NCBI GenBank assembly: GCA_947488655.1
Contig: CANKZZ010000002.1
Span: forward strand, 1-64,000
Source of the DNA: an uncultured Psychroserpens sp.
Lineage (GTDB): Bacteria; Bacteroidota; Bacteroidia; Flavobacteriales; Flavobacteriaceae
DNA length: 64,000 bases
Reading direction: 5' to 3'
Position 1 is the stretch's first letter, and each line of letters opens with the position of its first letter. The notes below the pieces were generated by a model. That model was not told the DNA's origin. It did no database searches and worked only from the letters and a program-made list of their open reading frames with translations. Below are positions 1 to 61,725 of this stretch, piece after piece. The position numbers and the translations under genes were made by a program.

Positions 1-759
1 TTTTTTAGAACAACATCCTCTCAAGACGCGCCAGCTTCCGAAGAACAAGAAGTGCAAACCGAAGGCATCATGCAAAAAATACGCTTAGAATTTAACGCAG
101 TAGATGGACCTGCAACAAAGCGCGAACTATTATTAGGCTTTAGTGATTTTACAACAGATGCATATGATTATGGTTACGAAGCTAAAAATATAGACGAGAA
201 CCAAGATGATTTAAATTTGGTTTTAGAGGGTCAAAATATGATGATACAAGCTTATGCAAGCATCACAGCAGAGAAAGAGGTCCCATTAAAGTTTAAAGCT
301 TCTGGGAGTTATAATTACAGGATTGAATTGACACAAATAGAAAACATAGAGCCAGACCAAGAGATTTATTTAAGAGATAATTTATTAGGTTATTATTTTG
401 ATTTACGAACAGATCAGGCTTATGAATTTTCATCGGAAAGTGGTGTGTTTGCCAACCGATTTGAAATCGTGTTTCAAGAGGCCCATCAAGAATCATTATC
501 TACAACCGAAGAAGATTATACTTACAATTTAATGTATTATAATAATGACACCAATAAGTTATTTGTAAAAGGATTACAGAGTGATGCAGAGCAATTGATG
601 ATTATTAACATGCTAGGCCAAACGGTACAAGAATTTGGTCATGTAGAGGCTCAAAAACTAGATAACGGTATCTCTGTTTCAAACCTATCAACAGGTGCAT
701 ATGTGGTTTATCTAAAAACCAATACAAGTGTAAAAACTAAGAAGATTATTATAAAGTAA
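1..759 (+). CDS. C-terminal part of a secreted T9SS-sorted surface protein (5' truncated)
   Basis: The reading frame is open from base 1, so the gene begins upstream of the window; the GTG at 52 is not a credible start because homology with the next gene continues before it. The last ~220 residues align along their whole length with the C-terminus of the 1297-residue neighbour (shared [23 protein letters not shown] and [11 protein letters not shown]). The final ~80 residues look like a type A type IX secretion sorting domain ending in a basic KTKKIIIK tail. In this family the domain is removed during export through the outer membrane and the passenger is attached to the surface or released. 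Passenger function cannot be judged from this piece. It is followed by an intrinsic terminator. Confidence 0.85.
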   Translation, partial: FFRTTSSQDAPASEEQEVQTEGIMQKIRLEFNAVDGPATKRELLLGFSDFTTDAYDYGYEAKNIDENQDDLNLVLEGQNMMIQAYASITAEKEVPLKFKASGSYNYRIELTQIENIEPDQEIYLRDNLLGYYFDLRTDQAYEFSSESGVFANRFEIVFQEAHQESLSTTEEDYTYNLMYYNNDTNKLFVKGLQSDAEQLMIINMLGQTVQEFGHVEAQKLDNGISVSNLSTGAYVVYLKTNTSVKTKKIIIK

Positions 760-1082
760 TCAACTTCATAATTTAAACATTTAGGCTGTTTCACTAACAA
801 TGAAGTGGCCTTTTTTTATGTGAATTATAGTGTTGATTAAGAGCTTATTCTCTTAGTTAATAGGAGGGTTTTAAGAGATTTTAACAATTGCAGCTAGTCA
901 TTCAACTGATTTCCTAAACATTTCAACTAATTTACCTCATATAGCAATTTCAAACCTATTACTAATGCGTAATATTGTACTAATTATGAGATGAATTGTT
1001 ATGTTCAATTTATTTAATAGATGTCCCTCTAGTAAAATCTATTCGACTAAGAAATTAGTTTTTTAAAATTAACCATTGTGCT
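760..1082. other. Gene-free interval between two tandem T9SS genes
   Basis: 323 bases. Apart from the terminator at 783-817 I see no open frame, repeat or RNA. The last ~100 bases are AT-rich leader or promoter sequence for the next gene, with no clear TAnnTTTG element. Confidence 0.5.
783..817 (+). terminator. Intrinsic terminator behind the first T9SS gene
   Basis: An 11-bp stem (783-793 with 801-811, containing three G-T pairs) and a 7-nt loop are followed by a run of seven T. It lies 24 bases after the stop codon. Confidence 0.7.
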
Positions 1083-4000: not shown

Positions 4001-4976
4001 TAATGGTGGATATGCTACTGTAACTTTGAGTGGTTCTGTTAGAGCGTCACAATTTGTTGGTTTTGATGGAGGAAATAGTGGAGGAGAAGAAGGCACAAAA
4101 TTACCAACCAGATATCTTCCAGTTGGTCAGGGCTTTAATGCAGAAATCGCAAATTCAGGAAACATCATTTTCAAAAATAGTCAACGTATCTTTATTAAAG
4201 AAGCAGATGCAGATGGTACATCAGATGTAGGCTCAGTATTTTTGAGAACCGACGAAAATTCTCAAGAGGAGCAAATTTCCGAAGATAATATAATGCAGAA
4301 AATTCGTTTAGAGTTTAACTCTGTTGATGGTCCAGCTGCTAGACGCGAGGTTTTATTAGCTTTTAGTGATTTTACTACAGATGAGTTTGACTACGGTTAC
4401 GAAGCAGAAAATTCTGGTGTTGGTGGTGATGATATGAGTCTTGTCTTAAACGACAAATTAATGCTCATTCAAGCCTATGCTTCAGTTACAGATGCTAAAG
4501 TTGTACCATTATCAATTAAAACGTCTGGTAATTTTAATTACACAATTAAAATTTCAGAATTAACAAATTTTGATGAGGATCAACCTATTTATTTAAAAGA
4601 CAATTTTACAGGAGAAACTTTTAATTTGAGAAACAATCAGGCTTATGAGTTTTCTTCGGAAAATGGAACTTTTAACACGAGATTTGAAATTGTTTTTCAA
4701 CCAAGAGAGGCATTATCTACAGTAGAGCAGGATTATCAATATAATCTAATTTATTTCAATACAGATACAAATAAACTGTTTGTAAAAGGGCTTCAAAAAA
4801 ATGTGCAACATGTACAAATAATAAACATGTTAGGTCAAACTGTTCAAGAATTTAAAGACGTAGATTATCAAGATTTAAATAATGGTTTACAACTCTCAAA
4901 ATTAACTACAGGAACTTATGTTGCTTATTTTAAAACCGAAAATGGTATTAAAACTAAGAAGATTTTAGCGCAATAA
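1083..4976 (+). CDS. Large secreted protein with TSP type 3 repeats, LamG-like domain and T9SS sorting domain
   Basis: 1297 residues with an N-terminal signal peptide ending near LSFTQ. Calcium-binding thrombospondin type 3-like repeats (DxDxDGIxD patterns) lie at about residues 25-50 and 280-400. A LamG/concanavalin A-like jelly roll follows at about 427-607 ([33 protein letters not shown]). A long Asn/Ser-rich region with IgG-like or beta-helix-like character leads to a C-terminal T9SS type A sorting domain (about 1215-1297, [11 protein letters not shown], ending KTKKILAQ). This fits a surface adhesin or carbohydrate-binding protein; no catalytic residues were recognised. The last ~230 residues are closely similar to the preceding truncated gene, so the two are tandem paralogues or share a duplicated 3' module. 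The start is the ATG directly before the signal peptide. Confidence 0.85.
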
Positions 4977-6425: not shown

Positions 6426-9400
6426 ATGAGCGCGAAATTTCCTGAATATAAAGGACTTGACTTACCAAAAGTTGCAGAAGACATTCTCAACTACTGGGAA
6501 GAAAACAACATATTTGAAAAAAGTATTTCCACAAGAGAAGGTAGTGAGCCTTACGTCTTTTTTGAAGGACCACCTTCAGCAAATGGATTACCTGGAGTAC
6601 ACCACGTTTTAGCGCGTGCTATTAAAGATATTTTCCCAAGATATAAAACCATGAAAGGGTTCCAAGTTAAGCGTAAAGCTGGTTGGGATACTCATGGCTT
6701 ACCTATTGAACTTGGAGTCGAAAAAGAATTAGGAATTACTAAAGAAGATATTGGTAAAACAATCTCTGTAGAAGATTATAACGCAGCTTGTCGTAAAGCA
6801 GTGATGCGTTATACTGATGTTTGGAACAATCTTACACAAAAAATGGGTTATTGGGTAAATATGGATGACCCATACATTACCTACGATCCCAAATACATGG
6901 AGAGTGTTTGGTGGTTGCTAAAAGAAATTTATAATAAAAGCTTACTTTACAAAGGGTACACCATACAACCGTATTCTCCAAAAGCAGGTACAGGACTGAG
7001 CTCTCATGAGCTTAATCAACCTGGTACATATCAAGATGTTACAGATACAACAGTAGTTGCTCAGTTTAAAGCCAATGCAGATTCTCTACCAGACTTTTTA
7101 CAAAACGAAGGTGATATCTATTTCTTAGCATGGACGACAACACCTTGGACACTGCCAAGTAATACAGCATTAACTGTTGGACCAAAAATTGATTATGTAT
7201 TGGTAGAAACTTATAACCAATACACCTTTCAACCAATGAATGTGGTATTAGCCAAAAAACTGGTTAATTATCAATTCTCCGGAAAGTTTAATTTAGTAGA
7301 AGATAAAGCTGCTTTATTAGATTATAAGGCTGGCGATAAAAAAATACCATACTTTGTCGTAAAAGAATTTGTAGGCAAAGATTTAGTAGGCATCACTTAC
7401 GAACAATTATTACCATATGCACTTCCTAACGATAATCCTGAAAATGCATTTAGAATCATTACAGGAGATTTCGTCACCACAGAAGATGGTACAGGTATAG
7501 TTCATACAGCACCAACATTTGGAGCAGATGATGCATTAGTTGCCAAACAAGCAACACCAGAAATTCCGCCATTATTAGTAAAAGATGATAATGATAATTT
7601 AGTGCCTCTTGTAGATTTACAAGGTCGCTTTAGACCAGAAATGGGTGAGTTTGCTGGCAAGTATGTAAAAAACGAGTATTACAATGATGGTGAAGCTCCA
7701 GAACGTTCAATAGATGTTGAGCTTGCTATTAAATTAAAAGAAGAAAATAAAGCCTTTAAGGTTGAAAAATACAAACACAGTTATCCAAATTGCTGGAGAA
7801 CTGACAAGCCAATTTTATACTATCCGTTAGACTCATGGTTCATTAAGGTGACAGATGTGAAAGAGCGTATGGTAGCATTAAATGATACCATTAACTGGAA
7901 ACCTAAATCTACTGGTACTGGTCGCTTTGGTAATTGGCTAGCAAACGCTAACGACTGGAATTTATCGAGATCTCGTTATTGGGGAATCCCTTTACCAATA
8001 TGGAGAACAGAAGATGGCACAGAAGAAATCTGTATTGGTTCTGTAGAAGAATTAAAATCAGAAATGGCAAAAGCAGTGACTGCTGGAGTTCTAGCTGCAG
8101 ATATATTTGACGATTTTGAAGTTGGCAACTTTTCCGAAGAAAACTATGCGAAAATAGATTTACATAAAAATATCGTTGATGAAATTGTGTTGGTATCACC
8201 AAAAGGTCAACCAATGAAACGCGAAAGTGACTTAATTGATGTGTGGTTCGATTCTGGCTCTATGCCTTATGCACAATGGCATTATCCTTTTGAAAACCAA
8301 GAATTAATTGACGATAATAAATCATTTCCTGCCGATTTTATTGCAGAAGGTGTAGATCAAACTCGTGGTTGGTTCTATACTTTACATGCTATTGGTACTA
8401 TGGTATTTGATTCTGTAGCTTATAAAAACGTAGTTTCTAATGGATTGGTTTTAGACAAAAACGGACAAAAAATGTCTAAACGTCTTGGTAATGCAACAGA
8501 TCCATTTACTACTTTAGATACTTATGGAGCAGATGCTACGCGTTGGTATATGATAATGAACGCAAATCCTTGGGACAATCTAAAGTTTGATTTAGAAGGC
8601 ATAGAAGAGGTAAAACGTAAGTTTTTTGGCACATTATATAACACGTATTCATTTTTTACACTGTATACTAATTTAGATAAATTCACATATTCTGAAGAAG
8701 AAATTCCGTTAGCGCAACGTCCAGAAATTGACCGTTGGATTTTATCTGAGTTACATACATTGATTCAAAAAGTAGATGAGTATTACGCAGCATATGAGCC
8801 AACAAAAGCTGCAAGAGCAATCTCAGAGTTTACACAAGATTATGTAAGTAACTGGTTTGTGCGTTTAAGCAGAAGACGCTTTTGGAAAGGAGACTATGAG
8901 ACAGATAAAATCTCTGCATACCAAACATTATATACTTGTATGTTAACTATTGCTAAGTTAGGAGCGCCAATTGCACCTTTCTTTATGGATAGACTTTACT
9001 TAGATTTAACTCAGGTATCACATAAAGAAAACTTTGAGAGTGTACATTTGGCAGACTTTCCAGTATATGATAAAGCTTATGTAGATAAGAGCTTAGAACG
9101 TAAAATGGAAAGTGCTCAAACCATTTCATCTTTAGTGTTATCATTAAGAGCTAAGGAGAAGATTAAAGTGAGACAGCCATTGCAAAAAATTATGATTCCT
9201 ATAGATTCAAAAGAACAAAAGGAAGAAATTATGGCTGTAGCAGAGTTAATTAAATCTGAGGTTAATGTAAAGTCTGTTGAGGTATTAGAAGATGCAAGTG
9301 ATATTTTGGTAAAGCAAATAAAACCAAATTTTAAAGTATTAGGACCTCGCTTTGGACAAGATATGAAAGCTGTTGCCCAATTAGTTAATGGCTTTGGAGC

Positions 9401-12906: not shown

Positions 12907-13479
12907 TTATTTACTTCGGAAATTGTAAATCTTGTTAGGAGTAACACAGTAATCTAATTGTATATCTAAAGGATTTATATCTTTAATTTCATTGACTGCC
13001 TCAAAAAAGGCTAAACCAATTTTTAGAGTATGAGGCTTACAGCCTGCCAAAAACTTGTCATAAAATCCTTTGCCATATCCAACTCTGTTACCTTTTTCAT
13101 CAAAAGCTAATAAGGGTATAAAAACTACTTCAATTTGTTGGGAATCAATTGGTATGCCATTTACAGGTTCAGGAATATTCCAAGCATTTTTTTTAATTTT
13201 TGTACTGTCGGTTAGTAAGTAGTGAGACATTTCTCGAGTTGAGAAATTGCTCTTAGAGATAATGATATTTTTATCTTTTCCGGAGAGAATATTTAATATG
13301 TAATCTGTATTAATTTCTTTATGTTCTACTATAGATAAGAAGAGATGATAATATTCAAATTCCCAAATAGGAAGTCTTAATAATTGATTAGCAATACTGA
13401 GGCTAAAATCTTCTAACGCGTCCTCAGATAGAGCCTTTCGCAGAATTTTGTGATGTTTTCTAATTTCAGCTTTTGTCAT
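12907..13479 (-). CDS. 5-formyltetrahydrofolate cyclo-ligase
   Basis: 190 residues, the usual size. It uses ATP to convert 5-formyl-THF to 5,10-methenyl-THF, recovering folate from a dead-end form. The N-terminal basic MTKAEIRKHHKILRK and the family box RVGYGKGFYDKFL (about 140-152) are clear. It overlaps the aspartoacylase-like gene by 14 bases and is the last gene of the RimB-like/RimK operon. A link between folate salvage and protein glutamylation is not established; the overlap may just reflect operon packing. Confidence 0.92.
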   Translation of the reverse strand: MTKAEIRKHHKILRKALSEDALEDFSLSIANQLLRLPIWEFEYYHLFLSIVEHKEINTDYILNILSGKDKNIIISKSNFSTREMSHYLLTDSTKIKKNAWNIPEPVNGIPIDSQQIEVVFIPLLAFDEKGNRVGYGKGFYDKFLAGCKPHTLKIGLAFFEAVNEIKDINPLDIQLDYCVTPNKIYNFRSK

Positions 13480-15898: not shown

Positions 15899-17692
15899 AT
15901 GGATAAACCTTCACTAGACATACAATTAAAAACGTTACCACAAGAGCCTGGTGTGTATCAATATTTTGATGCCGATGATAAGTTAATTTACGTTGGTAAA
16001 GCCAAAAATTTAAAAAAAAGAGTAAGTTCTTACTTTACAAAAACTCATGATAATGGCAAAACACGTGTACTTGTAAAAAAGATTAGAAATATTAAGCATA
16101 TCGTTGTAGAGACAGAAACTGATGCGCTTTTACTAGAAAATAATCTTATAAAAAAATACAAGCCTCGTTATAATGTATTGCTTAAAGATGACAAATCTTA
16201 CCCATGGATTTGTATAAAAAACGAACGTTTTCCAAGAGTGTTTCCTACGCGACGTATTTTTAAAGATGGATCAGAGTATTATGGTCCATATACAAGTATG
16301 AAAACGGTTTGGACATTATTAGATTTAATTAAAGGTTTATATAGCTTACGTACTTGTAATTATAATCTTTCCGAAGAAAAAATAGAAGCAGGAAAATACA
16401 AAGTTTGTTTAGAGTACCATTTAGGTAATTGCAAAGGTCCTTGTGAAGATTTGCAAAGCGAAGAAGAGTATAATGCACACATTATCGCCATAAGAGAAAT
16501 TATTAAAGGTAATTTTAAAGACTCATTATCGCAGTTTAAAAGTCAAATGAAACGGTTGGCTCAAGATATGCAGTTTGAAGAAGCGCAACGCATTAAAGAA
16601 AAAATTCAGATTTTAGAGAATTATCAAGCAAAATCAACCATTGTTAATCCTAAAATTAGCAACGTAGATGTGTTTAGCATTATGAGTGATGAAAGTTACG
16701 CCTATGTTAATTTTTTACAATTATCCTACGGAAGTATAATTAGGTCGCACACCTTAGAAATTAAAAAGAAATTAGACGAAACTAATTTACAATTGTTAGA
16801 ATTGGCAATTACCGAAATTAGACAACGTTTTAACTCCTCATCAAGAGAAATTTATGTGCCTTTTAAGGTAGATTTGGGTAATGATGTAAAAGTTACAGTG
16901 CCAAAATTGGGTGACAAAAAGAAAATATTAGATTTATCTCTTCGGAATGCAAAATACTATCGTATGGAGCGTTTTAAACAAGTAAAAATTGTAGATCCAG
17001 ATCGTCATGCTAATAGAATTATGGCTCAAATGAAGGTAGATTTACGTTTACCCGAAGAACCAAGGCATATAGAGTGTTTTGATAATTCTAACATACAAGG
17101 AACCAATCCTGTGGCTGCTTGTGTGGTTTTTAAGGATGGCAAACCTAGTAAAAAGGATTATCGTCATTTTAATATAAAAACAGTAGTTGGACCAGATGAT
17201 TTTGCATCTATGGAAGAGGTGGTTTATCGTCGTTATAAAAGACTATTAGAAGAAGAAGAACCTCTACCGCAATTAATAATTATTGATGGAGGTAAAGGGC
17301 AATTATCATCGGCTCTAAAAAGTTTGGATGCTTTAGGACTTAGAAACACAATTGCAATAATTGGTATTGCTAAACGTTTGGAAGAATTATTCTATCCAGA
17401 TGATCCAATTCCCTTATATTTAGATAAAAAAAGCGAAACATTAAAGGTTATACAACATTTAAGAAATGAAGCCCATCGTTTTGGGATTGAGCATCATAGA
17501 AATAGACGTAGTAAACAGGCTTTAAATACAGAGTTAGAAACCATACCAGGAATTGGAGAGCAGACGGTTGTGGCTTTAATGAAAAAATTTAAGTCGGTTA
17601 AGCGTATTTCCGAAGCGAAAAAAGAAGATCTCGAGAAAGTTGTGGGCTTATCTCGAGCTCAAAAAATAATAGACTATTACAGTAAAAAGTGA
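15899..17692 (+). CDS. uvrC: Excinuclease ABC subunit C
   Basis: 597 residues. It makes both incisions around damaged bases during nucleotide excision repair with UvrA/UvrB. Domain order: GIY-YIG nuclease (GVYQYFDADDKLIYVGKAKN, ~12-90), a Cys-containing linker (CLEYHLGNCKGPC), the UvrB-interacting UVR motif (~200-235, FEEAQRIKEKI), the RNase H-like 3' nuclease with ECFDNSNIQG and IIDGGKGQL, and C-terminal helix-hairpin-helix (ETIPGIGEQT). I chose ATG 15899 (MDKPSLDIQ) over the in-frame TTG three codons upstream, because that TTG lies inside a likely -7 promoter element. It overlaps the patatin gene by 4 bases. Confidence 0.95.
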   Translation: MDKPSLDIQLKTLPQEPGVYQYFDADDKLIYVGKAKNLKKRVSSYFTKTHDNGKTRVLVKKIRNIKHIVVETETDALLLENNLIKKYKPRYNVLLKDDKSYPWICIKNERFPRVFPTRRIFKDGSEYYGPYTSMKTVWTLLDLIKGLYSLRTCNYNLSEEKIEAGKYKVCLEYHLGNCKGPCEDLQSEEEYNAHIIAIREIIKGNFKDSLSQFKSQMKRLAQDMQFEEAQRIKEKIQILENYQAKSTIVNPKISNVDVFSIMSDESYAYVNFLQLSYGSIIRSHTLEIKKKLDETNLQLLELAITEIRQRFNSSSREIYVPFKVDLGNDVKVTVPKLGDKKKILDLSLRNAKYYRMERFKQVKIVDPDRHANRIMAQMKVDLRLPEEPRHIECFDNSNIQGTNPVAACVVFKDGKPSKKDYRHFNIKTVVGPDDFASMEEVVYRRYKRLLEEEEPLPQLIIIDGGKGQLSSALKSLDALGLRNTIAIIGIAKRLEELFYPDDPIPLYLDKKSETLKVIQHLRNEAHRFGIEHHRNRRSKQALNTELETIPGIGEQTVVALMKKFKSVKRISEAKKEDLEKVVGLSRAQKIIDYYSKK

Positions 17693-24960: not shown

Positions 24961-24972
24961 TTTCTTCGGAAA
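24961..24972 (-). repeat. Dispersed 12-mer motif, intergenic copy
   Basis: Exact TTTCCGAAGAAA on the minus strand, in the 64-bp gap before hppD. Confidence 0.8.
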
Positions 24973-26255: not shown

Positions 26256-26267
26256 TTTCCGAAGAAA
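26256..26267 (+). repeat. Dispersed 12-mer motif, intergenic copy
   Basis: Exact TTTCCGAAGAAA, 28 bases behind the hppD terminator. The 17-base context GCACATTTCCGAAGAAA is shared exactly with the copy at 41574. Confidence 0.85.
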
Positions 26268-28138: not shown

Positions 28139-29425
28139 ATGCAACCAAAACAATTATTAATAGCACTTTTATTATGCATCTGTTTTTTTTCTTGTAAAGA
28201 GGAAGAGAAACCAGAAGTAAAAACGATAGAAACCATTGCAGAACCAGAACCAATTAAAGAATTTGGTTTTGTTTTAGAAGATTACATTGTAAAACGAGAT
28301 ACCATTAGAAATGGAGATAGTTTTGGAGAAATTCTAGAACGCAACCACATTGGGTATCCAAGAATTTTTAATATAGCAGAAAAAGCTAAAGACAGCTTTG
28401 ATATTAGAAAACTACAAGTGGGTAAGCCTTACACTTTATTATGTGCTAAAGATTCGCTTCAAACACCAGAGTGTTTTATTTACCAACGTAACAGTATAGA
28501 TTACGTCGTTATTAAATTTGCAGATTCTATAATGGCTTATAATGATAAAAAGCCAATAACTATTGTTCAAAGAGAAGCATCTGGTATTGTTATGAATAAT
28601 CTTTCTGAAACAATGGAGAAGCAAGGTTTGCCTTACGGTTTAATAAACGATATGAGCGATATCTATGCATGGACTATTGACTTTTTTAGACTTCAAAAAG
28701 GCGATCGATTTAAAATTGTATATAAACAACGATACATTGAAGACTCTATTTACGCAGGAATAGAAAGTATTGATGCAGCCTATTTTAAACATAAAGACGA
28801 ACCATTTTATGCTTTTAATTTTGAGGTAGATAGCACAAAAAATATATCAGATTATTTTGACGAAAACACTAAAAGTTTGCGACGTACATTCTTAAAAGCG
28901 CCTGTACAATTTAGTAGAATTTCTTCTCGCTATAATTTAAACAGACGTATAAAGTATTACGGTTATAGATTAAAGCCTCACAAAGGCACCGACTTTGCAG
29001 CACCTATTGGTACCGAGATTTTAGCAACTGCAAACGGTACAGTTACAGAGTCAACAAGACGTGGCGGAAACGGTAAATATGTAAAAATAAAGCATAATGG
29101 TACCTACAGTACGCAGTATTTACATATGAAAGCTCAAAATGTTAAAAAGGGAGATTTTGTAAGGCAAGGAGATGTAATTGGTTGGGTTGGTATGACAGGT
29201 AATACTGGAGGACCTCATGTGTGCTACCGTTTTTGGAAAAATGGTAAACAAGTAGATCCTTTTAAAGAAAAACTACCAGCAGCAGAGTCCATACCAGACT
29301 CCCTAAAAACGAGATACTCAGAGTATATAAAACCCTTGAAATTGCAACTAGATAATATTCAATTTGAAGATAATAATATAGAAATACCTTCGGAAGAAGA
29401 AACACTTACCAGTAAAATAAAATAA
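28139..29425 (+). CDS. M23-family metallopeptidase lipoprotein
   Basis: 428 residues with a lipobox (CFFSCK, Cys ~19). An OapA/LysM-like N-terminal part (~40-120) precedes the peptidase domain at about 275-385. Zinc ligands are visible in HKGTDFAAP (H and D), HMKAQNV and the final HVCYRFW. Such enzymes cleave cross-bridge peptides of peptidoglycan and are often envelope-remodelling endopeptidases. The LysM-like part may hold it to the wall. It shares one base with the pgi start (TAATG), so the genes are coupled. Confidence 0.9.
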   Translation: MQPKQLLIALLLCICFFSCKEEEKPEVKTIETIAEPEPIKEFGFVLEDYIVKRDTIRNGDSFGEILERNHIGYPRIFNIAEKAKDSFDIRKLQVGKPYTLLCAKDSLQTPECFIYQRNSIDYVVIKFADSIMAYNDKKPITIVQREASGIVMNNLSETMEKQGLPYGLINDMSDIYAWTIDFFRLQKGDRFKIVYKQRYIEDSIYAGIESIDAAYFKHKDEPFYAFNFEVDSTKNISDYFDENTKSLRRTFLKAPVQFSRISSRYNLNRRIKYYGYRLKPHKGTDFAAPIGTEILATANGTVTESTRRGGNGKYVKIKHNGTYSTQYLHMKAQNVKKGDFVRQGDVIGWVGMTGNTGGPHVCYRFWKNGKQVDPFKEKLPAAESIPDSLKTRYSEYIKPLKLQLDNIQFEDNNIEIPSEEETLTSKIK

Positions 29426-31071
29426 TGGCATTAAAAACAATCAACCCAACAAAAACAAATGCTTGGAAAAAATTACAGGCACATTTTGAAACAATAGAAG
29501 ATACTCATATTAAAAATCTATTTGAAGAAAATCCAAATAGAGCCAATGATATGACCATTAAATGGGAAGATTTCTATGTAGATTATTCAAAGCATAGACT
29601 TACTCAAGAAACACTTGATTTGCTTTTAGAATTAGCACACGAAGTGGATTTAAAAGATGCCATGAACAAGTATTTTGGAGGAGATGTTATAAACAAAACC
29701 GAAGGACGTGAGGTTTTACATACAGCGTTGAGAAACAATAAAGATGCTGAGGTTTTAGTAGAAGGAGAAAATGTAATGAAAGACGTCTTTGAGGTAAAAT
29801 CAAAAATTGAAGACTTTACAAGCAAGATAATCAACGGAGACTTAAAAACTTATAACAACCAGCCCTTTACAGATGTTGTAAATATAGGTATTGGTGGCTC
29901 AGATTTGGGTCCAGCAATGGTTGTAGATTCATTAGCATATTACAAAAATCACTTAAAAACGCATTTTGTAAGTAATGTTGATGGAGATCATGTAAATGAA
30001 ATTATTAAAAATTTAAATCCAGAAACAACACTTTTTGTTATCGTTTCAAAAACATTTACAACTCAAGAAACTTTATCTAATGCAAATACACTTAGAGAGT
30101 GGTTTTTAAAACATGCACCACAAGATGCAGTGTCTAAACATTTTGTCGCTGTATCTACTAATATAGAAAAAGTAAAAGCCTTTGGTATTGATGAGGCTAA
30201 TGTTTTCCCAATGTGGAATTGGGTTGGAGGACGTTTTTCTTTATGGAGTGCTGTAGGTTTAACTATAAGTTTAGCGGTTGGTTTTGATAATTTTAATAAG
30301 CTCCTTTTAGGTGCTCATAAAATGGATGAGCACTTTAAAACTCAAGATTTTGATAAAAATATTCCTGTAATTACAGCACTATTAAGCGTATGGTATAATA
30401 ATTTTTTTAATGCCGAAAGTGAAGCTGTTATTCCATATTCGCAATATTTAAATCAATTTGCTACTTACCTGCAACAAGGTATAATGGAGAGTAATGGGAA
30501 AAGTATAGATAGAAATGGAGATAAAGTAAACTACCAAACAGGAACCATTATTTGGGGAGAACCTGGTACAAATTCGCAACATGCATTTTTTCAATTAATT
30601 CACCAAGGGACAAAGTTAATTCCTGCAGAGTTTATTGGTTTTGCAAAATCGCTGCATGGTAATCAAGACCATCAAGATAAGCTCATGTCAAACTTCTTTG
30701 CTCAAACAGAGGCTTTAATGAGTGGTAAGTCTCAAAAAGTGGTAATTGATGAGTTAAAAGAGCAAGGTGTTTCCGAAGAAAAAATTAAAGATCTCACACC
30801 TTTTAAAGTCTTTGAGGGCAATAAGCCAACCACAACTATTTTAATAGAAAAATTAACTCCCGAAAGTTTAGGGAAGTTAATAGCAATGTACGAACACAAG
30901 ATTTTTGTACAAGGTATTATTTGGAATATCTTTAGCTACGATCAATTTGGAGTAGAATTAGGAAAACAACTTGCAAACACGATTTTAAAGGAGCTTAAAG
31001 ACGTAAATGTTATTAACAATCACGACAATTCTACCCAAAACCTCATTAAATACTACCAACAACTTGATTAG
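29425..31071 (+). CDS. pgi: Glucose-6-phosphate isomerase
   Basis: 548 residues, matching the standard E. coli-type enzyme (549). It interconverts glucose-6-phosphate and fructose-6-phosphate in the cytoplasm. PGI signatures are IGIGGSDLGPAM, the substrate loop SKTFTTQET, WGEPGTNSQHAFFQLIHQG and the C-terminal GVELGKQLA with catalytic Lys. It starts on the stop of the M23 gene. No other sugar metabolism genes adjoin it. Confidence 0.97.
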   Translation: MALKTINPTKTNAWKKLQAHFETIEDTHIKNLFEENPNRANDMTIKWEDFYVDYSKHRLTQETLDLLLELAHEVDLKDAMNKYFGGDVINKTEGREVLHTALRNNKDAEVLVEGENVMKDVFEVKSKIEDFTSKIINGDLKTYNNQPFTDVVNIGIGGSDLGPAMVVDSLAYYKNHLKTHFVSNVDGDHVNEIIKNLNPETTLFVIVSKTFTTQETLSNANTLREWFLKHAPQDAVSKHFVAVSTNIEKVKAFGIDEANVFPMWNWVGGRFSLWSAVGLTISLAVGFDNFNKLLLGAHKMDEHFKTQDFDKNIPVITALLSVWYNNFFNAESEAVIPYSQYLNQFATYLQQGIMESNGKSIDRNGDKVNYQTGTIIWGEPGTNSQHAFFQLIHQGTKLIPAEFIGFAKSLHGNQDHQDKLMSNFFAQTEALMSGKSQKVVIDELKEQGVSEEKIKDLTPFKVFEGNKPTTTILIEKLTPESLGKLIAMYEHKIFVQGIIWNIFSYDQFGVELGKQLANTILKELKDVNVINNHDNSTQNLIKYYQQLD

Positions 31072-33781: not shown

Positions 33782-33793
33782 AAAAAAAGAAAA

Positions 33794-35563: not shown

Positions 35564-35575
35564 TTTCCGAAGAAA
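35564..35575 (+). repeat. Dispersed 12-mer motif, intergenic copy
   Basis: Exact TTTCCGAAGAAA, starting 7 bases after the terminator stem at 35531-35556. Confidence 0.85.
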
Positions 35576-38140: not shown

Positions 38141-39181
38141 TTAGAAATTAAAGGCATCTATAAAATTACTTATTAAAATAGGTGTGGGATAATTTTTTAC
38201 TTCGGAAACAGGAATACTACTACTCTCAATCTTTTTAACCTCAATAATCCAAAACTTAGTATATAAATGTTGATGCGATAATTTATGAATAATATCAACC
38301 TCATTATATAAAGAGTATTCTATAGATGTATCCTTTAAAATCGTGTCATCTAAATTGAGTTGATCAAACTCATGAGATTCTAAGCTTTTAGTTGACTCAA
38401 TTAAAGGGAACTGATATAGATTTTGCCATATACCTTTAGAGACACGCTTTTCAAAAACAGTTTGTTTGTCTTGAGATATTATAACTAAAAAATTAAAGTA
38501 CTTATTACTAACCTTGGTCTTTTTAATTTTAACAGGTAAATTATCAACCTTATCCCTTTGTAAAGCAACACAACTATTATTTAGAGGGCAAAGCGCACAA
38601 TCTGGATTTTTAGGTTTGCATTGTATAGCACCAAACTCCATAATAGCCTCATTATAGTCACCAGGATTTTTAGTGTCTAATAGTTTGGTAGCTAAGACCT
38701 TAAACTCTTTAATGCCCAAAGTAGTATTAATAGGAGTAGAGATGCCAAAATATCTGGCAAGAACACGATATACATTACCATCAACAACCGCATGTGGCTC
38801 TTTAAAGCAAATAGATGAAATAGCACTAGCAGTGTAATCGCCAACACCTTTAAGCTTTAATAAAGTTTTATAAGTAGAAGGGAATTCGCCATTAAGATCA
38901 TTAACAATATACTTTGCAGATGCATGTAGATTTCTAGCTCTAGAATAATAACCTAATCCTTGCCAAAGCTTTAAAATATCTTGTTCATTAGCGTTTGCCA
39001 GGTCAAAAACAGAAGGAAAATTGGTAACAAAAGCTTCATAATAAGGTAAACCTTGTTTAATTTGGGTTTGTTGCATAATTATTTCAGACAACCAAATATG
39101 ATACGGGTTTTTAGTAAGTCTCCATGGTAAATCTCTTTTATTAACTGAATACCAACGTGTTAAAATCTCTGTAAATTTCAT
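38141..39181 (-). CDS. mutY: A/G-specific adenine glycosylase
   Basis: 346 residues. It removes adenine mispaired with 8-oxoguanine. Visible features are LPWRLTKNPYHIWLSEIM-like N-terminus with the catalytic Glu region (IIMQQTQI), helix-hairpin-helix LKGVGDYTASAI, catalytic Asp in AVVDGNVYRV, the 4Fe-4S cluster C-x6-C-x2-C-x5-C (CKPKNPDCALCPLNNSC) and a NUDIX-like MutT-related C-terminus that recognises 8-oxoG. It is first in the mutY-ssb-gldE-gldD unit and is divergent from HU. A near copy (one mismatch) of the dispersed 12-mer core lies in its 3' end. Confidence 0.96.
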   Translation of the reverse strand: MKFTEILTRWYSVNKRDLPWRLTKNPYHIWLSEIIMQQTQIKQGLPYYEAFVTNFPSVFDLANANEQDILKLWQGLGYYSRARNLHASAKYIVNDLNGEFPSTYKTLLKLKGVGDYTASAISSICFKEPHAVVDGNVYRVLARYFGISTPINTTLGIKEFKVLATKLLDTKNPGDYNEAIMEFGAIQCKPKNPDCALCPLNNSCVALQRDKVDNLPVKIKKTKVSNKYFNFLVIISQDKQTVFEKRVSKGIWQNLYQFPLIESTKSLESHEFDQLNLDDTILKDTSIEYSLYNEVDIIHKLSHQHLYTKFWIIEVKKIESSSIPVSEVKNYPTPILISNFIDAFNF

Positions 39182-41539: not shown

Positions 41540-41586
41540 ATTTCTTCGGAAATTTTAAATCAAGTTTAGCACATTTCCGAAGAAAT
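41540..41586. repeat. Inverted pair of the dispersed 12-mer, 14-bp stem
   Basis: 41540-41553 and 41573-41586 are perfect reverse complements (ATTTCTTCGGAAAT / ATTTCCGAAGAAAT), 19 bases apart. Each contains an exact copy of the 12-mer. They lie between convergent genes, 16 bases behind the RNase E/G terminator and 5 bases before the end of the reductase gene. Confidence 0.9.
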
Positions 41587-45030: not shown

Positions 45031-48000
45031 ATGAAAATTGCTATTTCACTTATTTGTTTTATGCTGTCCTTTTGTGCGCTCGCACAAGAGACAACAACTA
45101 ATTATAGAACAAAAAAAGTGATGGTTAGAGATTCTGTAAAAATAGATACAGTAAGCATCAACTCAAGCTGGTTTTTTCTTAGGAAAACAAATAACACACT
45201 CATAGATACATCCTTTTATAAAGTTAATTTTGCCAAGGCATTACTAACCTTTAAAAAACCTATAGATGTAGATTCCATAGAAATATCATATTTACGATAT
45301 CCAGATTTTTTAACTCGGAAATATGCCCAACTTGACGAAAAGATCATTGTAGAAAACACAGATAATCTACAAAGACTCTATAAGCTCAACCAATCTAATA
45401 TTCAAAAAAATTACACACCCTTTGGAGGATTAAGCACCTCTGGAAGTATTTCGCGAGGCGTAACACTAGGTAATAACCAAAACTCGGTTTTAAATAGTGA
45501 GTTGGATTTACAAATTTCTGGTAAACTGAGTGATAAGGTATCGCTTAGAGCCTCTATACAAGATGCTAATATTCCTTTACAAGAGAGTGGTTATTCACAA
45601 CGATTAGATGAGTTTGATCAAGTATTTATAGAACTGTTTAGTGACCGTTGGAATATAAGAGCAGGTGACATAGATCTCACAAATACTAATAGTTATTTTG
45701 CCAACTTCACCAAGCGCGTACAAGGTTTGCAAGTCGCAGCAAATTTTGGAGATGAAGACTCAAAAACCACGCTTTTTGCCTCTGGAGCTTTGGTTAGAGG
45801 TCAATTTACCACGAGTCAATTTACAGCTCAAGAAGGTAATCAAGGACCTTATAAACTCACAGGACCCAATAATGAGTTATTTGTATTAATCGTTTCTGGT
45901 AGCGAAACTGTCTATGTCAATGGAATTCCAATAGAGCGTGGCGAAAACAAAGATTACATCATAGATTATAATGCTGGAGAGATTATATTTAATTCTACGT
46001 TTCCTATTACTTCAGAAATGAGAATCACTGTAGATTATCAGTTTAGTGAGCGTAATTTTTCTCGATTTACCATTTTTGGAGGTGGTGCTTATGAATCTGA
46101 AAAGTTAAAACTTGGTGTTTCAGTCTATTCTGAAGCAGATGCAAAAAATCAACCCTTACAGCAAAATCTTTCAGCAGAACAAGTAGAAATATTATCTAAC
46201 GCAGGTGATAATCAATCGCTAATGATTGCGCCATCAGACGTTTCCGAAGCCTACGATGAAAACCGAATATTATATAGAAAAGAGATTATAAATGGGATAG
46301 AACGTTTTGTGTTTTCAAATAATGAAGATGACGATTTGTTTAGTGTACGTTTTACATTAGTTGGTGCCAATCTTGGTAATTATGTTTTGATAAACAGTAA
46401 CGCAATTGAGAACATTTTTGAATATGTAGATCCTGTAAATGGAATTCCGCAAGGAAATTACGAACCGATTGTTAGATTAATTGCACCAGAAAAATTGCAA
46501 GTTGCTGTTGTTAATGGCGCATATAAACCAACCGAAAAAACAGATGTGTTTTTTGAATTGGCTGGTAGTAAAAATGATGAAAACTTATTTTCTAATTTAG
46601 ATGATGGTAATAATGATGGCTTTGCAGCAAAGTTACGGGTCAACCAAAACATCATTAAAACGGATAGTCTTTGGAATCTTAACGCCAATTTTGATGTAGA
46701 TATAATTAACAAAAACTTTGAAACTATACAGCGTTTATATAGAGCAGAGTTTAATCGAGATTGGAATTTAGAAAACCCCTTAGGTAATCAATCATTACTC
46801 ACAACAGGTTTAGAATTGTTGCATCCAAAAAAAGGATTGGCGTCTTATCAATTTGAACATCTTAGTTACTCAGAAAATTTTAATGGTAATCGTCATAATG
46901 TGTTTGCCAATCTTAAACTTAATGATTTTAATGTGTTTTCTAGCTCTAGTTTTTTAAATAATAATAGTAGTCTCTCTACATCTACATTTATACGCTCTTT
47001 TAATAGAGTAACCTACAATTTTAAAAAACAATGGGTTGGTACTAGAATTGCGTTAGAAGATAATGAGCAGCGAGATAAACAAACAGACTCTTTAACAGTT
47101 TTGAGTCAGCGTTTTAAGTCGTATGAAGTATTTACAGGTATTGGAGATAGTACTGGTGTTTTTGTTGAGGTTGGTTACAAACATCGTGTTAATGATAGTT
47201 TACGAGCTAATGTCATTAAACGCGTAAATTCATCTAATACGTATTATTTAAAGTCTAAGATTATTCAAAATCAAAATACTAATTTAGGTCTTTATGCAAA
47301 TTATCGTAAGCTAATTAGCCAGGATGAAAGTATAGAGGATGAAAATTCGTTAAATTCTCGATTAAATTTTAATCAAAAACTATGGAATAATCTTGTGCTT
47401 TTAAACACCGTTTTTGAAACTAACTCAGGCACTTTGCCTCAACAAGATTTTACTTATGTAGCGGTAGAGCCTGGTCAAGGTGCCTATACTTGGATAGATT
47501 ATAACGACAATGGTATACAAGAACTTAATGAGTTTGAGGTTGCGCAATTTAGTGATCAAGGAGAATATATTAGAGTCTTACTCCCAAACCAGGTTTTTGT
47601 AAAAACCCATCAAAACAGATTTAGTCAAACATTAACTGTAAACCCACAACAATGGGCAGTATCAGAAGACAAAGGAAAAAAATTCTGGTCTCATTTTTAT
47701 AATCAAACGTCTTATTTAATTGATAGAAAAAATAGACGAGAAGGTGAGGAGTTTGACTTAAATCCGTTTTCTACTTCTAACGATAATCAGTTAGCATTGA
47801 ATAAAAGTATTCGTAACGTGCTATTTTTTAATAGAGGGAAGCAAAATTTTACCACATCGTACACTTATCTAGAAAACACGAATAGAACAACACTATCTAT
47901 TGGTTTTCAAGAAAACACATTAGAAAGTCACCAATTGCAATTCAATCATAAGTTTTTAACAAGCTGGCTTCTTAATTTACAATCTAGCTTAGAAACAAAT

Positions 48001-48531: not shown

Positions 48532-49107
48532 ATGAAAACTACGCTTTTATCTATTGCTTGTCTATTTATATTTTTGTCTGGTGCTTATGCACAAAATGAC
48601 TCCATACAAGACCCTTATAAAAAGGATAACGAAATTAAATTAAACGCAGTTTTTCTGTTAATAGGAGCGCTTGAGCCAAGTTATGAGCGTAATTTATCAG
48701 AGTCATCCTCGGTTGGTATATCTGCTTTAATTCCATTAGATATAGAAAATTTAGATACAGATTTAAATTATTACGTTTCACCTTATTATCGTGTTTTCTT
48801 CGGAAAAAAATATGCAGCAGGTTTTTTTATTGAAGGTTTTGGGATGGTATCATCTTATGACGAACGAAATTCGTTTTTTACAGGCAATGAATTTGACCCA
48901 ACACTTGTAACTGAAGAAAATACATTTACTAATGTTGCTGTAGGATTTGGTCTTGGAGGAAAGTGGGTGACCAAAAGTGGTTTTGTTTTTGAGCTAAATG
49001 CAGGTTTTGGTAGAAATATAATTAATAACAGTAATACCAGCAATAATGATAACAACGATTTTGATTTTGTTGGAAAGTTTGGTTTTAATTTGGGATATAG
49101 GTTTTAA
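48532..49107 (+). CDS. Hypothetical outer-membrane beta-barrel protein
   Basis: 191 residues with signal peptide (ending near GAYAQ). It has eight or so amphipathic strands, Gly-rich turns (GFGLGGKWVTKSG) and the C-terminal FGFNLGYRF, consistent with a small DUF3575-like or OmpA-type barrel. A TATACTTG element lies ~65 bases upstream. It is closed by a terminator shared with glyS. Confidence 0.7.
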   Translation: MKTTLLSIACLFIFLSGAYAQNDSIQDPYKKDNEIKLNAVFLLIGALEPSYERNLSESSSVGISALIPLDIENLDTDLNYYVSPYYRVFFGKKYAAGFFIEGFGMVSSYDERNSFFTGNEFDPTLVTEENTFTNVAVGFGLGGKWVTKSGFVFELNAGFGRNIINNSNTSNNDNNDFDFVGKFGFNLGYRF

Positions 49108-49168: not shown

Positions 49169-49180
49169 TTTCCGAAGAAA
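49169..49180 (+). repeat. Dispersed 12-mer motif, intergenic copy
   Basis: Exact TTTCCGAAGAAA, 4 bases after the bidirectional terminator stem and 11 bases before the glyS stop. Confidence 0.85.
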
Positions 49181-52441: not shown

Positions 52442-52597
52442 AAAACAGATAACTCTACTCTCAAACAATTAAAACTCAAATTTTAAAATAATGAGTGTAA
52501 ACATTAGTTTTTAGTAGATTTCTTTAGGTTAAATTGGTACTAAATTGTTTTGAGGATACATTGCTTTATTGTTAATTTGTTGAAATTTGAAGTACGC

Positions 52598-54205
52598 ATG
52601 CACAAAAATCTTTTACAAAGCTTAATCATACTTATTATTATTTCATTAGTAATAAGTTGTGCAAATAGAGGTACACCTTCTGGTGGACCAAAAGATGTGG
52701 AAGCACCATTAATTATAAAATCTTCTCCAGAGAATTTAACGACTAATTTTAAAGGCAAAGAGATTAAAATTTATTTTGACGAATACGTTAAAATAAAAAA
52801 CCTTCAAAAACAACTTATTATTTCGCCTCCTATGGACCCAGAGCCAACGGTAACTCCATTAGGTACAGCGAGTAAATACATTACAATTATTATAAATGAT
52901 ACTTTAGATGATAACACCACTTATGCCTTTAATTTTGGACAAAGTATAGTAGATAATAATGAAGAAAACGCATATGATTATTATAGATATGTATTCTCTA
53001 CAGGACCTTACATAGATTCATTATCTGTTAAAGGACAAATATTAGATGCCGAAAATAGAAGTCCAGAGTCATTTGTATCTGTCATGTTATATGAGAAAGA
53101 TTCTACGTATACAGACTCTATTGTGTATAAAAACAAACCTAAATATATAACTAATACTTTAGACAGTCTCACAACTTTTAGTATAGATAATATTAAACCT
53201 GGCACCTATAAATTGGTAGCTCTAAAAGATGATAATGGAAATTTTACATTTCAGCAGGACAAAGATAAAATAGGGTTTTATGAAGGTTTTGTAACCGCTC
53301 CAACAGATGAGAGTTATACTATAAAATTATTTAAAGAACCTATTAATTTTGATATTAAAAGACCTCGTCAAGTTGCAGGTCAAAAAATAGCATTTGGTTT
53401 TGAAGGTGATTATAAATCAATGGAAATAGAGTTGTTAGACAACAAACCAGAAGGCTATACCACTAGAATTACAAAAGACCCAAGTGCAGATACATTGTTC
53501 TATTGGTACAAGCCAAAATTAGAATTAGACTCCACCCAATTTATTATAAAAAACAAAACCTATATAGATACGTTAAATCATAGATTTAGAACCGTAGATA
53601 GAGATTCTTTAACGATTAAAATGTTGTCATCTGGTACGTTAGGGTTTAGCGATAACGTAGAAATTACAGGAACAATACCATTTGTAAAATTTAATGAGGA
53701 GAAGATTCAAATTTTAGATAAAGACTCACTTAGTGTCGCATTTAACACTAATTATGATGCTTTTAAAAACGTTTATAGTTTGCAATTTGATAAAGATCAA
53801 ACCCAGCAGTATGCAATACAAATGTTGCCTGGAGCTTTAGAAGATTTCTTCGGAAATGTAAATGACACACTAAATTATAGCGCAAGAACAAAACTTTACT
53901 CAGATTACTCAAACATACGAGTAACGCTTAGAAATATGACCTATCCTGTCATTCTACAACTGGTTACAGAAAAAGGAGTTGTGAAATACGAGCAGTTTTC
54001 GGAAGAAGAACGCTTATTTGATTTTAGAAACCTCACACCAGGAAATTATTACTTACGAGTAGTTTTTGATACTAACGGAAACCAAAAATGGGATTCTGGA
54101 AATTATTTAGAACAACGACAAGCAGAGCGTATAAGTTATTATCCAGAACCTATTGATGCTCGAGCAAACTGGGATCCAGTTATAGAATTTAGTGTTTTAG
54201 AGTAA
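52598..54205 (+). CDS. Ig-like-domain lipoprotein
   Basis: 535 residues. I start at the ATG at 52598 (MHKNLLQ) because it directly precedes a lipoprotein signal (LVISCANRG, Cys 21); an in-frame TTG lies 48 bases upstream. A Gly-rich GTPSGGPKD and an SbsA-like Ig domain (~40-130, YFDEYVKIKNLQKQLIISPP, TYAFNFGQSI) are followed by repeated beta-domains, including YKLVALKDDNGNFTFQ and YYLRVVFDTNGNQKWDSG, similar to prealbumin-like repeats. It is an outer-membrane lipoprotein of unknown function, common in Bacteroidota. Its 3' end overlaps the convergent amidase gene by 17 bases. Confidence 0.82.
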   Translation: MHKNLLQSLIILIIISLVISCANRGTPSGGPKDVEAPLIIKSSPENLTTNFKGKEIKIYFDEYVKIKNLQKQLIISPPMDPEPTVTPLGTASKYITIIINDTLDDNTTYAFNFGQSIVDNNEENAYDYYRYVFSTGPYIDSLSVKGQILDAENRSPESFVSVMLYEKDSTYTDSIVYKNKPKYITNTLDSLTTFSIDNIKPGTYKLVALKDDNGNFTFQQDKDKIGFYEGFVTAPTDESYTIKLFKEPINFDIKRPRQVAGQKIAFGFEGDYKSMEIELLDNKPEGYTTRITKDPSADTLFYWYKPKLELDSTQFIIKNKTYIDTLNHRFRTVDRDSLTIKMLSSGTLGFSDNVEITGTIPFVKFNEEKIQILDKDSLSVAFNTNYDAFKNVYSLQFDKDQTQQYAIQMLPGALEDFFGNVNDTLNYSARTKLYSDYSNIRVTLRNMTYPVILQLVTEKGVVKYEQFSEEERLFDFRNLTPGNYYLRVVFDTNGNQKWDSGNYLEQRQAERISYYPEPIDARANWDPVIEFSVLE

Positions 54206-58220: not shown

Positions 58221-58222
58221 TC

Positions 58223-58690
58223 TTATTTCTTCGTCACTATATCATTAATTATCTTAACATGGTGATTTGTATGAAGTTCTAAAAATCTATAAATCCTTTT
58301 GCTATTAACGTTTCCGAAGAAAGGATGCTTAAAATAGGCGTCTTTATGTAAATCATCTATAGTGTTAACGTTGGTTCTAGCGAGCTGTAATTGCGAAATT
58401 AAATCTTCTTTTAAAATAGTTTCTGGCGGAATTACATATTTTGGAGCTTTCGCTTTTCCGCGAGGAAAAAAACCTAGTGTAAAAAATATCTTTCCTAATA
58501 AACTAAAATTGTTTCTATAGGTTTCAGGATCTGATGCTTGTAATGTTTCGCAAACTCTATTAATTACTTTTAGACTGTGGTCAATATGCCAGGCAATACC
58601 GCTTTTAGATATTTTTGGATTAGAAACAGTATGGTTTTCTATATGTGCTTCTAGTTTGTTAAGTAAACCATTTATTTTTTCTGAACTCAT
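58223..58690 (-). CDS. DUF1569 (DinB-like) protein
   Basis: 155 residues and helical. Metal-site histidines typical of the DinB/DUF1569 fold are seen in IAWHIDHSLKVI (~34-44) and LELHTNHHVKII (~138-149), with HPFFGNVNSKRIYRF between them. Members bind divalent metals and some act as thiol-dependent hydrolases or transferases; the activity here is unknown. The convergent neighbour ends 2 bases away. An exact dispersed 12-mer (58311-58322) encodes part of the HPFFGN box. Confidence 0.85.
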   Translation of the reverse strand: MSSEKINGLLNKLEAHIENHTVSNPKISKSGIAWHIDHSLKVINRVCETLQASDPETYRNNFSLLGKIFFTLGFFPRGKAKAPKYVIPPETILKEDLISQLQLARTNVNTIDDLHKDAYFKHPFFGNVNSKRIYRFLELHTNHHVKIINDIVTKK

Positions 58691-60236: not shown

Positions 60237-60341
60237 CTATCTTTTTACTTTGTTTATTAATTTATAATATGCCTTTGGCTTAAGTACTTAAAATAACTAA
60301 ATTCGCTATTGTAAAATATACAGCATTTGCCTTAGGCGATG

Positions 60342-60349
60342 CAAAGATA
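60342..60349 (-). promoter_or_regulatory. ahcY: Probable -7 promoter element for ahcY (TATCTTTG)
   Basis: Exact TAnnTTTG on the minus strand, 105 bases before the ahcY ATG. It implies a ~100-base leader containing a GCC-TAA-GGC hairpin. Confidence 0.4.
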
Positions 60350-60372
60350 ATCATTAAGTTTCAGATAATTAA

Positions 60373-60999
60373 ATGCCACTTTATAAAACTATTGAGCCTA
60401 ATTCACAAACTACTGTTAAAATCTGGAAGATTACAGAGGCTTATAATGAGTTGCTCCAACCACTAGATTTAAAACCTAATAGTTTGGAGCGTGTTTTAGG
60501 GATGAAGAGTGAATTGCATCAACGTGGTTTTTTAAGTGTGAGACATTTGCTTAGAGAATTTGGTTATACAGATCAAGATTTGTTTTATGATGATCATGGG
60601 AAACCACATTTAAAAGATGGTAAATACATTTCTATTACACATTCGTTTACGTTTTCTGGTGTTATAATTTCTTCTTCGGAAATTGGCATAGACATAGAAA
60701 AGCAGAGAGATAAAATTGCAATTATCGCCAAAAAATTTGTGGATTATGAATTTAAATATCTTTCTAAAACAGACGAAGATTACATTAAAAAACTAACCGT
60801 AATTTGGGGAATTAAAGAATCGCTATACAAACTATTTGCAACTCCAGGCATGCTATTTAGAGAGCATTTTTTGGTGATTCCATTTATGTTAGAAGATGGT
60901 GAAACTGTTGCTTGGATAGATTATAAAGGCAAAAAGTATAGATATAACACGCATTTCTTAGAGTTTGAAGGATTCTCTTGTGCTTTTGTAACAACGTAA
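60373..60999 (+). CDS. 4'-phosphopantetheinyl transferase, Sfp-like
   Basis: 208 residues. It activates carrier proteins by adding phosphopantetheine from coenzyme A. Mg-binding signatures are GIDIEKQRDK (~100-109) and the WGIKESLYKLF box (~154-164). ISITHSF precedes them as in Sfp-type enzymes. The stop codon directly adjoins the next start, so the two genes are coupled although no shared pathway is obvious. Confidence 0.92.
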   Translation: MPLYKTIEPNSQTTVKIWKITEAYNELLQPLDLKPNSLERVLGMKSELHQRGFLSVRHLLREFGYTDQDLFYDDHGKPHLKDGKYISITHSFTFSGVIISSSEIGIDIEKQRDKIAIIAKKFVDYEFKYLSKTDEDYIKKLTVIWGIKESLYKLFATPGMLFREHFLVIPFMLEDGETVAWIDYKGKKYRYNTHFLEFEGFSCAFVTT

Positions 61000-61725
61000 A
61001 TGAAATCGACCTACAGCGACATATTGAGTTCTATTTCCGAAGAAAAAAAATTGCTAGCAGTTTTAATAGATCCAGATAAAATGAAGCTCGAAGCCTTATC
61101 TGGTTTTATGCAAAAACTAAATCAATCTATTGCGACTCATATTTTTGTTGGAGGAAGCACAGTTAACGATTATGCTACTGAATTAATAGTACTTGAAATT
61201 AAAAAACACACCAAATTACCTGTCGTATTATTTCCAGGTGATGTTTCTCAAATTACCAATAAAGCAGATGCGTTGTTGTTTTTGTCATTAATTTCTGGTG
61301 ATAATCCCGAGTATTTAATTGGAAAGCATATTAAAGCAGTTTCAAAATTAAGAGACTTGGCTTTAGAAGTTATTCCAACAGGATATTTGTTGATTGAAAA
61401 TGGTAGGCAGACTACTGTAGAAAAGGTCACACAAACGCTACCTTTGCCTATAGAGAATGTTCAATATATAATTGACACTGCAAAAGCTGGCGAATTGCTA
61501 GGTATGAAGCTTGTTTATCTCGAAGCGGGAAGTGGAGCACTACAACCAGTGCCATTAGAAATCATTAGTTTTGTAAAGCAAGAATTAAGCGTCCCTTTAA
61601 TTGTAGGTGGCGGAATTAGAACAAAACAACAATTAAATGAAGCTTATAATTTTGGTGCAGACCTTGTGGTTATAGGTACCGCATTTGAGGATGATGAAGC
61701 GTTTTTTGATCAACTACGCAAGTAG
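61000..61725 (+). CDS. Geranylgeranylglyceryl/heptaprenylglyceryl phosphate synthase-family enzyme
   Basis: 241 residues of a (beta/alpha)8 fold. GGGPS/PcrB motifs are visible: VLIDPDKMKLE (~21-31), VFVGGSTVND-like IFVGGSTVND (~48-57), PVVLFPGDVSQIT, the EVIPTGYLLIENG region and VGGGIRTKQQL phosphate-binding loop near 202. The family joins polyprenyl diphosphate to sn-glycerol-1-phosphate. Bacteroidota homologues form a bacterial branch of this mainly archaeal family. The product in this organism is inferred; prenyl chain length cannot be read. It begins immediately after the PPTase stop. Confidence 0.9.
   Translation: MKSTYSDILSSISEEKKLLAVLIDPDKMKLEALSGFMQKLNQSIATHIFVGGSTVNDYATELIVLEIKKHTKLPVVLFPGDVSQITNKADALLFLSLISGDNPEYLIGKHIKAVSKLRDLALEVIPTGYLLIENGRQTTVEKVTQTLPLPIENVQYIIDTAKAGELLGMKLVYLEAGSGALQPVPLEIISFVKQELSVPLIVGGGIRTKQQLNEAYNFGADLVVIGTAFEDDEAFFDQLRK

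Follow-up and report, generated by a model that had tools for sequence, protein, structure and literature searches.

The 64-kb window analyzed here (the whole stretch of 64,000 nucleotides from a Psychroserpens genome) contains many copies of a 12-mer, TTTCCGAAGAAA, which belongs to a DNA word that is real, under constraint, specific to its lineage and uptake-sequence-like in its behavior. The word is strongly enriched, has a defined anatomy, is conserved site by site among related genomes, prefers intergenic DNA, is balanced between the strands, is absent from integrated islands and is confined to part of one family. We think it probable that this motif is the genomic DNA uptake sequence of a natural-transformation system of the Flavobacteriaceae, the role that we favor among several that an initial annotation of the window had put forward. 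We infer a competent organism, selection of the word through DNA uptake and a single protein that reads the word. To our knowledge, genome-wide uptake sequences have been established only in the Neisseriaceae and the Pasteurellaceae.

The window holds 14 exact copies of the 12-mer (nine on the plus strand and five on the minus strand), 16 copies of the 10-mer TTCCGAAGAA and 23 copies of the core octamer TTCCGAAG (Table 1). The initial annotation had listed all 14 exact copies, and every position and strand that it gave was borne out. It had also listed two additional copies of the inner 10-mer, which are present but start at 36 (plus) and 60672 (minus) rather than at 35 and 60671. Its near copies at 4277, 10221, 12912 and 38198 are indeed one-mismatch matches, although their starts were placed one base off, while at ~16938 the core TTCCGAAG is kept (minus strand, 16940) with more than one mismatch to the 12-mer. 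When up to one mismatch to the 12-mer was allowed, we found 21 matches in the window, whereas 100 dinucleotide shuffles averaged 0.81 and never exceeded 4. The genome (3,599,606 bases in 20 contigs) contains 363 copies of the 12-mer, 173 forward and 190 reverse, and only 2 copies of the reversed 12-mer that served as a control, so the strong over-representation that had been claimed from the window holds for the genome as well. In viral contigs, isolated matches were present for a 14-mer and for the reversed control, among the matches listed. As separate observations on the gene content of the window, the encoded UvrC shares 89% identity with its Psychroserpens algicola counterpart, and at 31235-35503 a TonB-dependent receptor gene is followed by a gene for a 569-aa protein without a Pfam family.

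Table 1. Positions of the motif in the 64-kb window, with the placement of each copy and its state in aligned relatives
Feature	Position	Strand	Placement and conservation
Exact 12-mer	4651..4662	-	Coding (ORF call)
Exact 12-mer	8131..8142	+	In isoleucyl-tRNA synthetase-like gene (Pfam)
Exact 12-mer	16368..16379	+	In uvrC (Pfam)
Exact 12-mer	24961..24972	-	Intergenic; core exact in G018, G002, G009, G003
Exact 12-mer	26256..26267	+	Intergenic; core exact in G018, G002, G009, G003
Exact 12-mer	30770..30781	+	In pgi (Pfam); core kept in G002, G009, G003; one change in G018
Exact 12-mer	35564..35575	+	Intergenic, 61 bases past the stop codon of an ORF that ends at 35503; alignable in G009 only and kept there
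Exact 12-mer	41541..41552	-	Intergenic; left arm of inverted pair, convergent genes on either side
Exact 12-mer	41574..41585	+	Intergenic; right arm of the 41541/41574 inverted pair
Exact 12-mer	48795..48806	-	Within ORF 48532-49107
Exact 12-mer	49169..49180	+	Intergenic, convergent genes on both sides (ORF calls)
Exact 12-mer	53845..53856	-	Within ORF 52550-54205
Exact 12-mer	58311..58322	+	Within minus-strand ORF 58223-58690
Exact 12-mer	61034..61045	+	Close to start of PcrB-like gene (Pfam)
10-mer TTCCGAAGAA	36..45	+	Upstream of ORF 52-759
10-mer TTCCGAAGAA	60672..60681	-	Coding
Core TTCCGAAG	4277..4284	+	Coding
Core TTCCGAAG	12914..12921	-	Coding
Core TTCCGAAG	16940..16947	-	Coding
Core TTCCGAAG	17608..17615	+	Coding
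Core TTCCGAAG	29388..29395	-	Coding; kept in G018, G009, G003; one change in G002
Core TTCCGAAG	38200..38207	-	Coding; kept in G002, G009, G003, G008
Core TTCCGAAG	46242..46249	+	Coding

In 464 kb of the source genome, made up of the window and 400 kb of contig C1, TTCCGAAG was the most enriched octamer, with 165 copies. A base profile of 164 sites revealed a T before TTCCGAAG in 74%; each of the six following positions carried an A in 62-82%, and there was little further signal within 40 bases. Since the A-tract stands on one side only, the actual unit consists of the asymmetric core TTTCCGAAG with a downstream A-tract and is not a hairpin, and the quasi-palindrome that the initial annotation had described looks incidental. 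The asymmetry and the 23 core copies in the window had escaped that annotation. This asymmetry also separates the motif from HIP1 of cyanobacteria, to which it had been likened; HIP1 is likewise a highly iterated short word found in coding and intergenic DNA, but it is a perfect palindrome. The Pasteurellaceae USS, a nine-base core next to A/T-rich tracts, resembles the motif in build and is also similar in density to the motif in G299, where we observed the highest core density (0.77 per kb), although its core is another word and only a single tract adjoins the core here. Several one-change variants of the motif were over-represented too (CTTCCGAAG, ATTCCGAAG, TTTCCGTAG, TTTCCGCAG and TTTCCCAAG); the excess of TTTCCCAAG is tentatively put down to a different repeat. 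TTTCTGAAGAAA is raised in some motif-enriched genomes (e.g., 59 copies in G075 and 58 in G294), but we do not claim a C-to-T dialect because the A-tract is absent at TTCTGAAG sites. Two other repeats were seen along the way: one around GTACCTTGATTTTCCCAAG, with 10 to 13 copies in the 464 kb (contig C1:1-400000 and the window), and a longer one with ~44 copies in G009 (C1:1-200000, L131-L140), containing words such as GTGGATTCGCAGG, which is probably one repetitive gene.

Within the 464 kb, 138 of the 165 octamers lie in genes, reading with the gene in 72 cases and against it in 66, and the codon start coincides with the octamer start in only four of the 138. Forty synonymous-codon shuffles of 388 predicted genes yielded 6.9 octamers (sd 3.0, maximum 12), placing TTCCGAAG ~20-fold above the shuffles in coding DNA. 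The 12-mer occurred 39 times compared to a mean of 0.9 and a maximum of 3 in the 40 shuffles, and its frequency is thus higher than a codon model predicts, a comparison on which the initial annotation had let its claim depend. The shuffles and the conservation in relatives described below agree that the constraint lies on the DNA, as had been argued from the use of TCC for serine in coding copies; TCC is indeed uncommon, accounting for 3.1% of serine codons. By ORF calls, on which the split between coding and intergenic DNA rests, TTCCGAAG had a density of 0.325 per kb within genes and 0.690 per kb between them, and the 12-mer one of 0.092 and 0.460 per kb, respectively (464 kb), an intergenic excess of ~2-fold for the octamer and ~5-fold for the 12-mer. 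Six of the 14 exact copies in the window are intergenic by these calls, as had been annotated.

The placement between genes could point to a transcription terminator or another RNA element, the more so as the reverse strand could fold at the quasi-palindrome into a stem of four base pairs with a UUCG loop. Convergent intergenic DNA is the class richest in the motif, with 11 copies in 7.4 kb among the 26 intergenic copies flanked by two genes, and the inverted pair at 41541/41574 is flanked by convergent genes. We nevertheless find such an element scarcely credible, given that most copies are coding and divided between sense and antisense, that intergenic copies had no clear orientation in the 464 kb, that inverted pairs 31-32 bases apart numbered only two (four copies), that the information runs to one side only and that an Rfam search of the window returned no match. 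Neighboring cores less than 200 bases apart were in minus-plus order in 9 of 14 cases here and in 3 of 10 in a stretch of G009.

To assess conservation, we aligned 209 kb of the genome with four high-copy relatives. The octamer was exact in 56 of 70 cases, compared to 605 of 3,875 for permuted octamers, and identity by position was 0.93-0.97 over the stretch between -1 and +7 and again high, at 0.96, for +10. In the flanks of the aligned motif sites, identity fell to ~0.6-0.7 at every third base. A second set comprised the surroundings of pgi (at most 20 kb per genome) in 20 relatives; here, the octamer was kept among the five highest-copy genomes in 88 of 110 cases, compared to 840 of 5,684 for permuted octamers, in a set that shares some sequence with the 209-kb alignment and in which genome pairs share sequences and are hence not independent. 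Approximately 3 of 297 control octamers with at least eight cases matched the conservation of the octamer among these five genomes. The effect was smaller from high- to low-copy species (62 of 399 vs. 1,968 of 20,699 for controls) and among low-copy species (70 of 438 vs. 8,241 of 73,146). Over the pgi regions of all 21 genus genomes, the octamer was kept in only 282 of 1,065 cases, a level that about one-tenth of control words equaled, and the conservation effect therefore belongs to the high-copy group; we count this weakness across the genus against an uptake sequence.

A weaker effect was seen in another genus (g63), where G299 and G084 (73.5% identity) kept the core in 22 of 63 cases compared to 123 of 1,726 for controls, with the second C of the core kept poorly (0.56). 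Flank variability gave values of 0.714 around the motif and 0.739 for comparison in this pair (P = 0.011), indicating slightly more variable flanks. In Psychroserpens, the values were 0.802 and 0.797 at random places, so that flanks are not more variable there, unlike those of neisserial uptake sequences, which likewise counts against the uptake reading.

Chi sites and KOPS are also over-represented, non-palindromic words and are strand-biased along replichores. A Chi-like or FtsK-orienting (KOPS-like) site would explain the abundance and asymmetry of the motif and its absence from foreign DNA, and a recombination or segregation site was among the roles that had been suggested. However, a two-arc strand contrast was absent from G275, G122 and contig C1 (P = 0.34, 0.52 and 0.60, respectively), and copies did not favor the G-rich strand in the stretches sampled from G000 (the source genome), G009, G299 and G304 (P = 0.42 to 0.74), which makes a polar segregation or Chi-like site very unlikely. 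The spacing of copies outside the island described below was slightly more even than random; this was not significant, and it is a further point that we count against uptake.

Absence from recently acquired DNA was judged from a post-hoc look at the largest motif gaps, as opposed to a count of core and accessory genes, and by this measure the motif is missing from such DNA. The 400 kb of contig C1 has one outlying gap of 25,476 bases (C1:306743-332219, L046:6743 to L047:12219), where 0.017 such gaps are expected. This 25.5-kb desert encodes a tyrosine integrase, a DUF3987 protein and proteins matching SspA, SspB, SspC, SspD, PbeA and PbeC, and by its gene content it is predicted to be an integrated phosphorothioation (SspABCD/Pbe) defense island. 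The two largest gaps in G084, which adjoin each other with one core between them (13.7 and 12.0 kb), form a PglX/Schlafen/integrase defense island, and in one of two stretches of G299 the largest gap (12.7 kb, 0.0085 expected) corresponds to a defense island with a cytosine methylase and a Z1-domain protein. In the other G299 stretch, no mobile gene was evident by eye in the largest gap (9.7 kb, 0.06 expected), which we count against the uptake reading. Separately, the AAA_24 protein of the C1 island and its integrase have relatives in the BREX-like PglX island of G084.

A self-mark read inside the cell by a modification or defense system, that is, a methylation or protection site distinguishing own from foreign DNA, would also be missing from integrated islands and could occur as patchily among genera as this motif does. 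Known modification enzymes recognize short fixed sites, however, and a nine-base core with an A-tract and tolerated variants is unlike these, so we regard a self-mark as decidedly improbable.

Enrichment is patchy and restricted to part of one family. The 23 Psychroserpens genomes contain 9 to 485 copies, an ~50-fold range within one genus without a known cause, which is a point against an uptake sequence. Among 299 Flavobacteriaceae genomes from 236 genera, a hand count gave 38 genomes, belonging to 27 genera, with at least 24 copies of the 12-mer; most others have 0 to 5. Among the 381 genomes from other families in our sample of the class (n = 395), none had more than 15 copies. TTCCGAAG was also the top enriched octamer in sampled stretches of G009, G262, G294, G299 and G304; it was not the top octamer in those of G015 and G121, though G121 has 63 copies of the 12-mer.

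This distribution bears on whether the motif is the binding site of a nucleoid, segregation or other chromosome-organizing protein, used chromosome-wide and kept site by site by selection. Such a site would account for the strong conservation of individual copies, their wide spread over the contigs and their intergenic preference, and the absence from islands fits this reading and an uptake sequence alike and does not separate them. A 50-fold range in copy number within a genus and background numbers in most of the family would be odd for a housekeeping function, and the motif lacks strand polarity. We therefore judge a chromosome-organizing site unlikely.

Returning to the uptake sequence, we propose that a putative surface or periplasmic part of an uptake machine would bind TTTCCGAAG and the A-tract on environmental DNA, favoring its entry. 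DNA of close relatives, because it bears the word, would then enter the cell and recombine with the chromosome at a higher rate than foreign DNA does. As fragments with the word replaced resident DNA again and again, damaged copies would be repaired and chance ones spread, and the word would therefore build up on both strands, preferably at the least harmful places, while remaining absent from recent islands.

In Neisseriaceae, the type IV pilin ComP recognizes the DUS, whereas the source genome has no match to PF00437 (T2SSE) above the curated cut-off. Treangen et al. (PMC2397512) describe published uptake sequences as highly conserved, rich between genes and absent from recently acquired genes, and the neisserial DUS, with hundreds to thousands of copies on both strands, shares all of these features with our motif. 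It is a different word in a different phylum, and for our motif an uptake bias is predicted. Variants of DUS between lineages are described in another study (PMC3630211). Four strings of the motif searched as whole words had no match in the open-licence literature; a search there for uptake sequences with Flavobacteriaceae, Bacteroidetes or Bacteroidota returned only one relevant paper (PMC7965970), and no reports of uptake or transformation in Psychroserpens were found in the literature searched, a point that we weigh against the uptake reading. PMC7965970 reports that Riemerella columbina favors its own DNA, which we count toward that reading, and the examined portion of its k-mer table contains A-rich words; a conserved word such as ours in related genera would offer a possible reason for a preference of this kind. 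Under the taxonomy used here, Riemerella may fall outside the Flavobacteriaceae.

We see about an even chance that part of the Flavobacteriaceae shares TTTCCGAAG plus the A-tract as an uptake sequence read by an outer-membrane machine without type IV pili. If this is true, a self-DNA tag evolved independently in another phylum and was repeatedly gained and lost in one family, providing a replicate for the question of why uptake words evolve. A conserved word in related genera would further serve as a ligand in the search for the receptor, and marine flavobacteria could become easier to transform in the laboratory.

Among candidate uptake genes, the initial annotation had pointed to comF, which it considered only a weak fit to uptake; a ComF-like gene is present at 51761-52441, and the other candidates sit elsewhere in the genome. 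In R. anatipestifer, transformation requires ComEC, DprA, ComF and RecA along with four more essential proteins without known uptake relatives; two of these are a DUF5689 protein and a carboxypeptidase-regulatory-like protein of the outer membrane (PMC8459023). The source genome has a DUF5689 and outer-membrane CarboxypepD_reg gene pair at ~C1:465061-469421 (L544), adjoining a divergent Exo_endo_phos_3 nuclease gene, that resembles the transformation-essential pair of Riemerella and may be orthologous to it; we count this likeness toward the uptake reading.

None of the three proteins that we surveyed (T2SSE, the primary DUF5689 protein and a second DUF5689 protein) tracks copy number across the family, which also weighs against uptake. 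Of the 299 genomes, 65 had a match above the cut-off to a PF00437 pilus/secretion ATPase, the candidate uptake engine; certain of these matches were only short and partial, and by eye the ATPase was unrelated to copy number. The primary DUF5689 protein occurs in 271 of 299 genomes, with at least 24 12-mers in 37 of the 271 with it and in 1 of the 28 without it (Fisher P = 0.23; copy numbers were read by hand, and 8 of the 28 absences were inferred from gaps in the match list). Being nearly universal, it is uninformative as an explanation of copy number. The second, a secreted protein of the T9SS type (583 aa) whose DUF5689 domain is weak (L537:9284-11035, minus strand; G000 C2:104286-106034), is present in 7 of 21 Psychroserpens genomes, namely the six with the highest copy numbers and G001 (P = 0.0008, ignoring kinship). 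In a family survey that scored at most four or five candidates per genome, however, it had long matches in the background genomes G200, G114, G091 and G056, whereas in the high-copy genomes G084, G299, G304, G061 and G262 all matches were short or weak, and we rejected it as the reader. By eye, an outer-membrane protein gene in G299 (C1:215887-219873, L565) adjoins a divergent nuclease-like gene, in the same arrangement as at L544.
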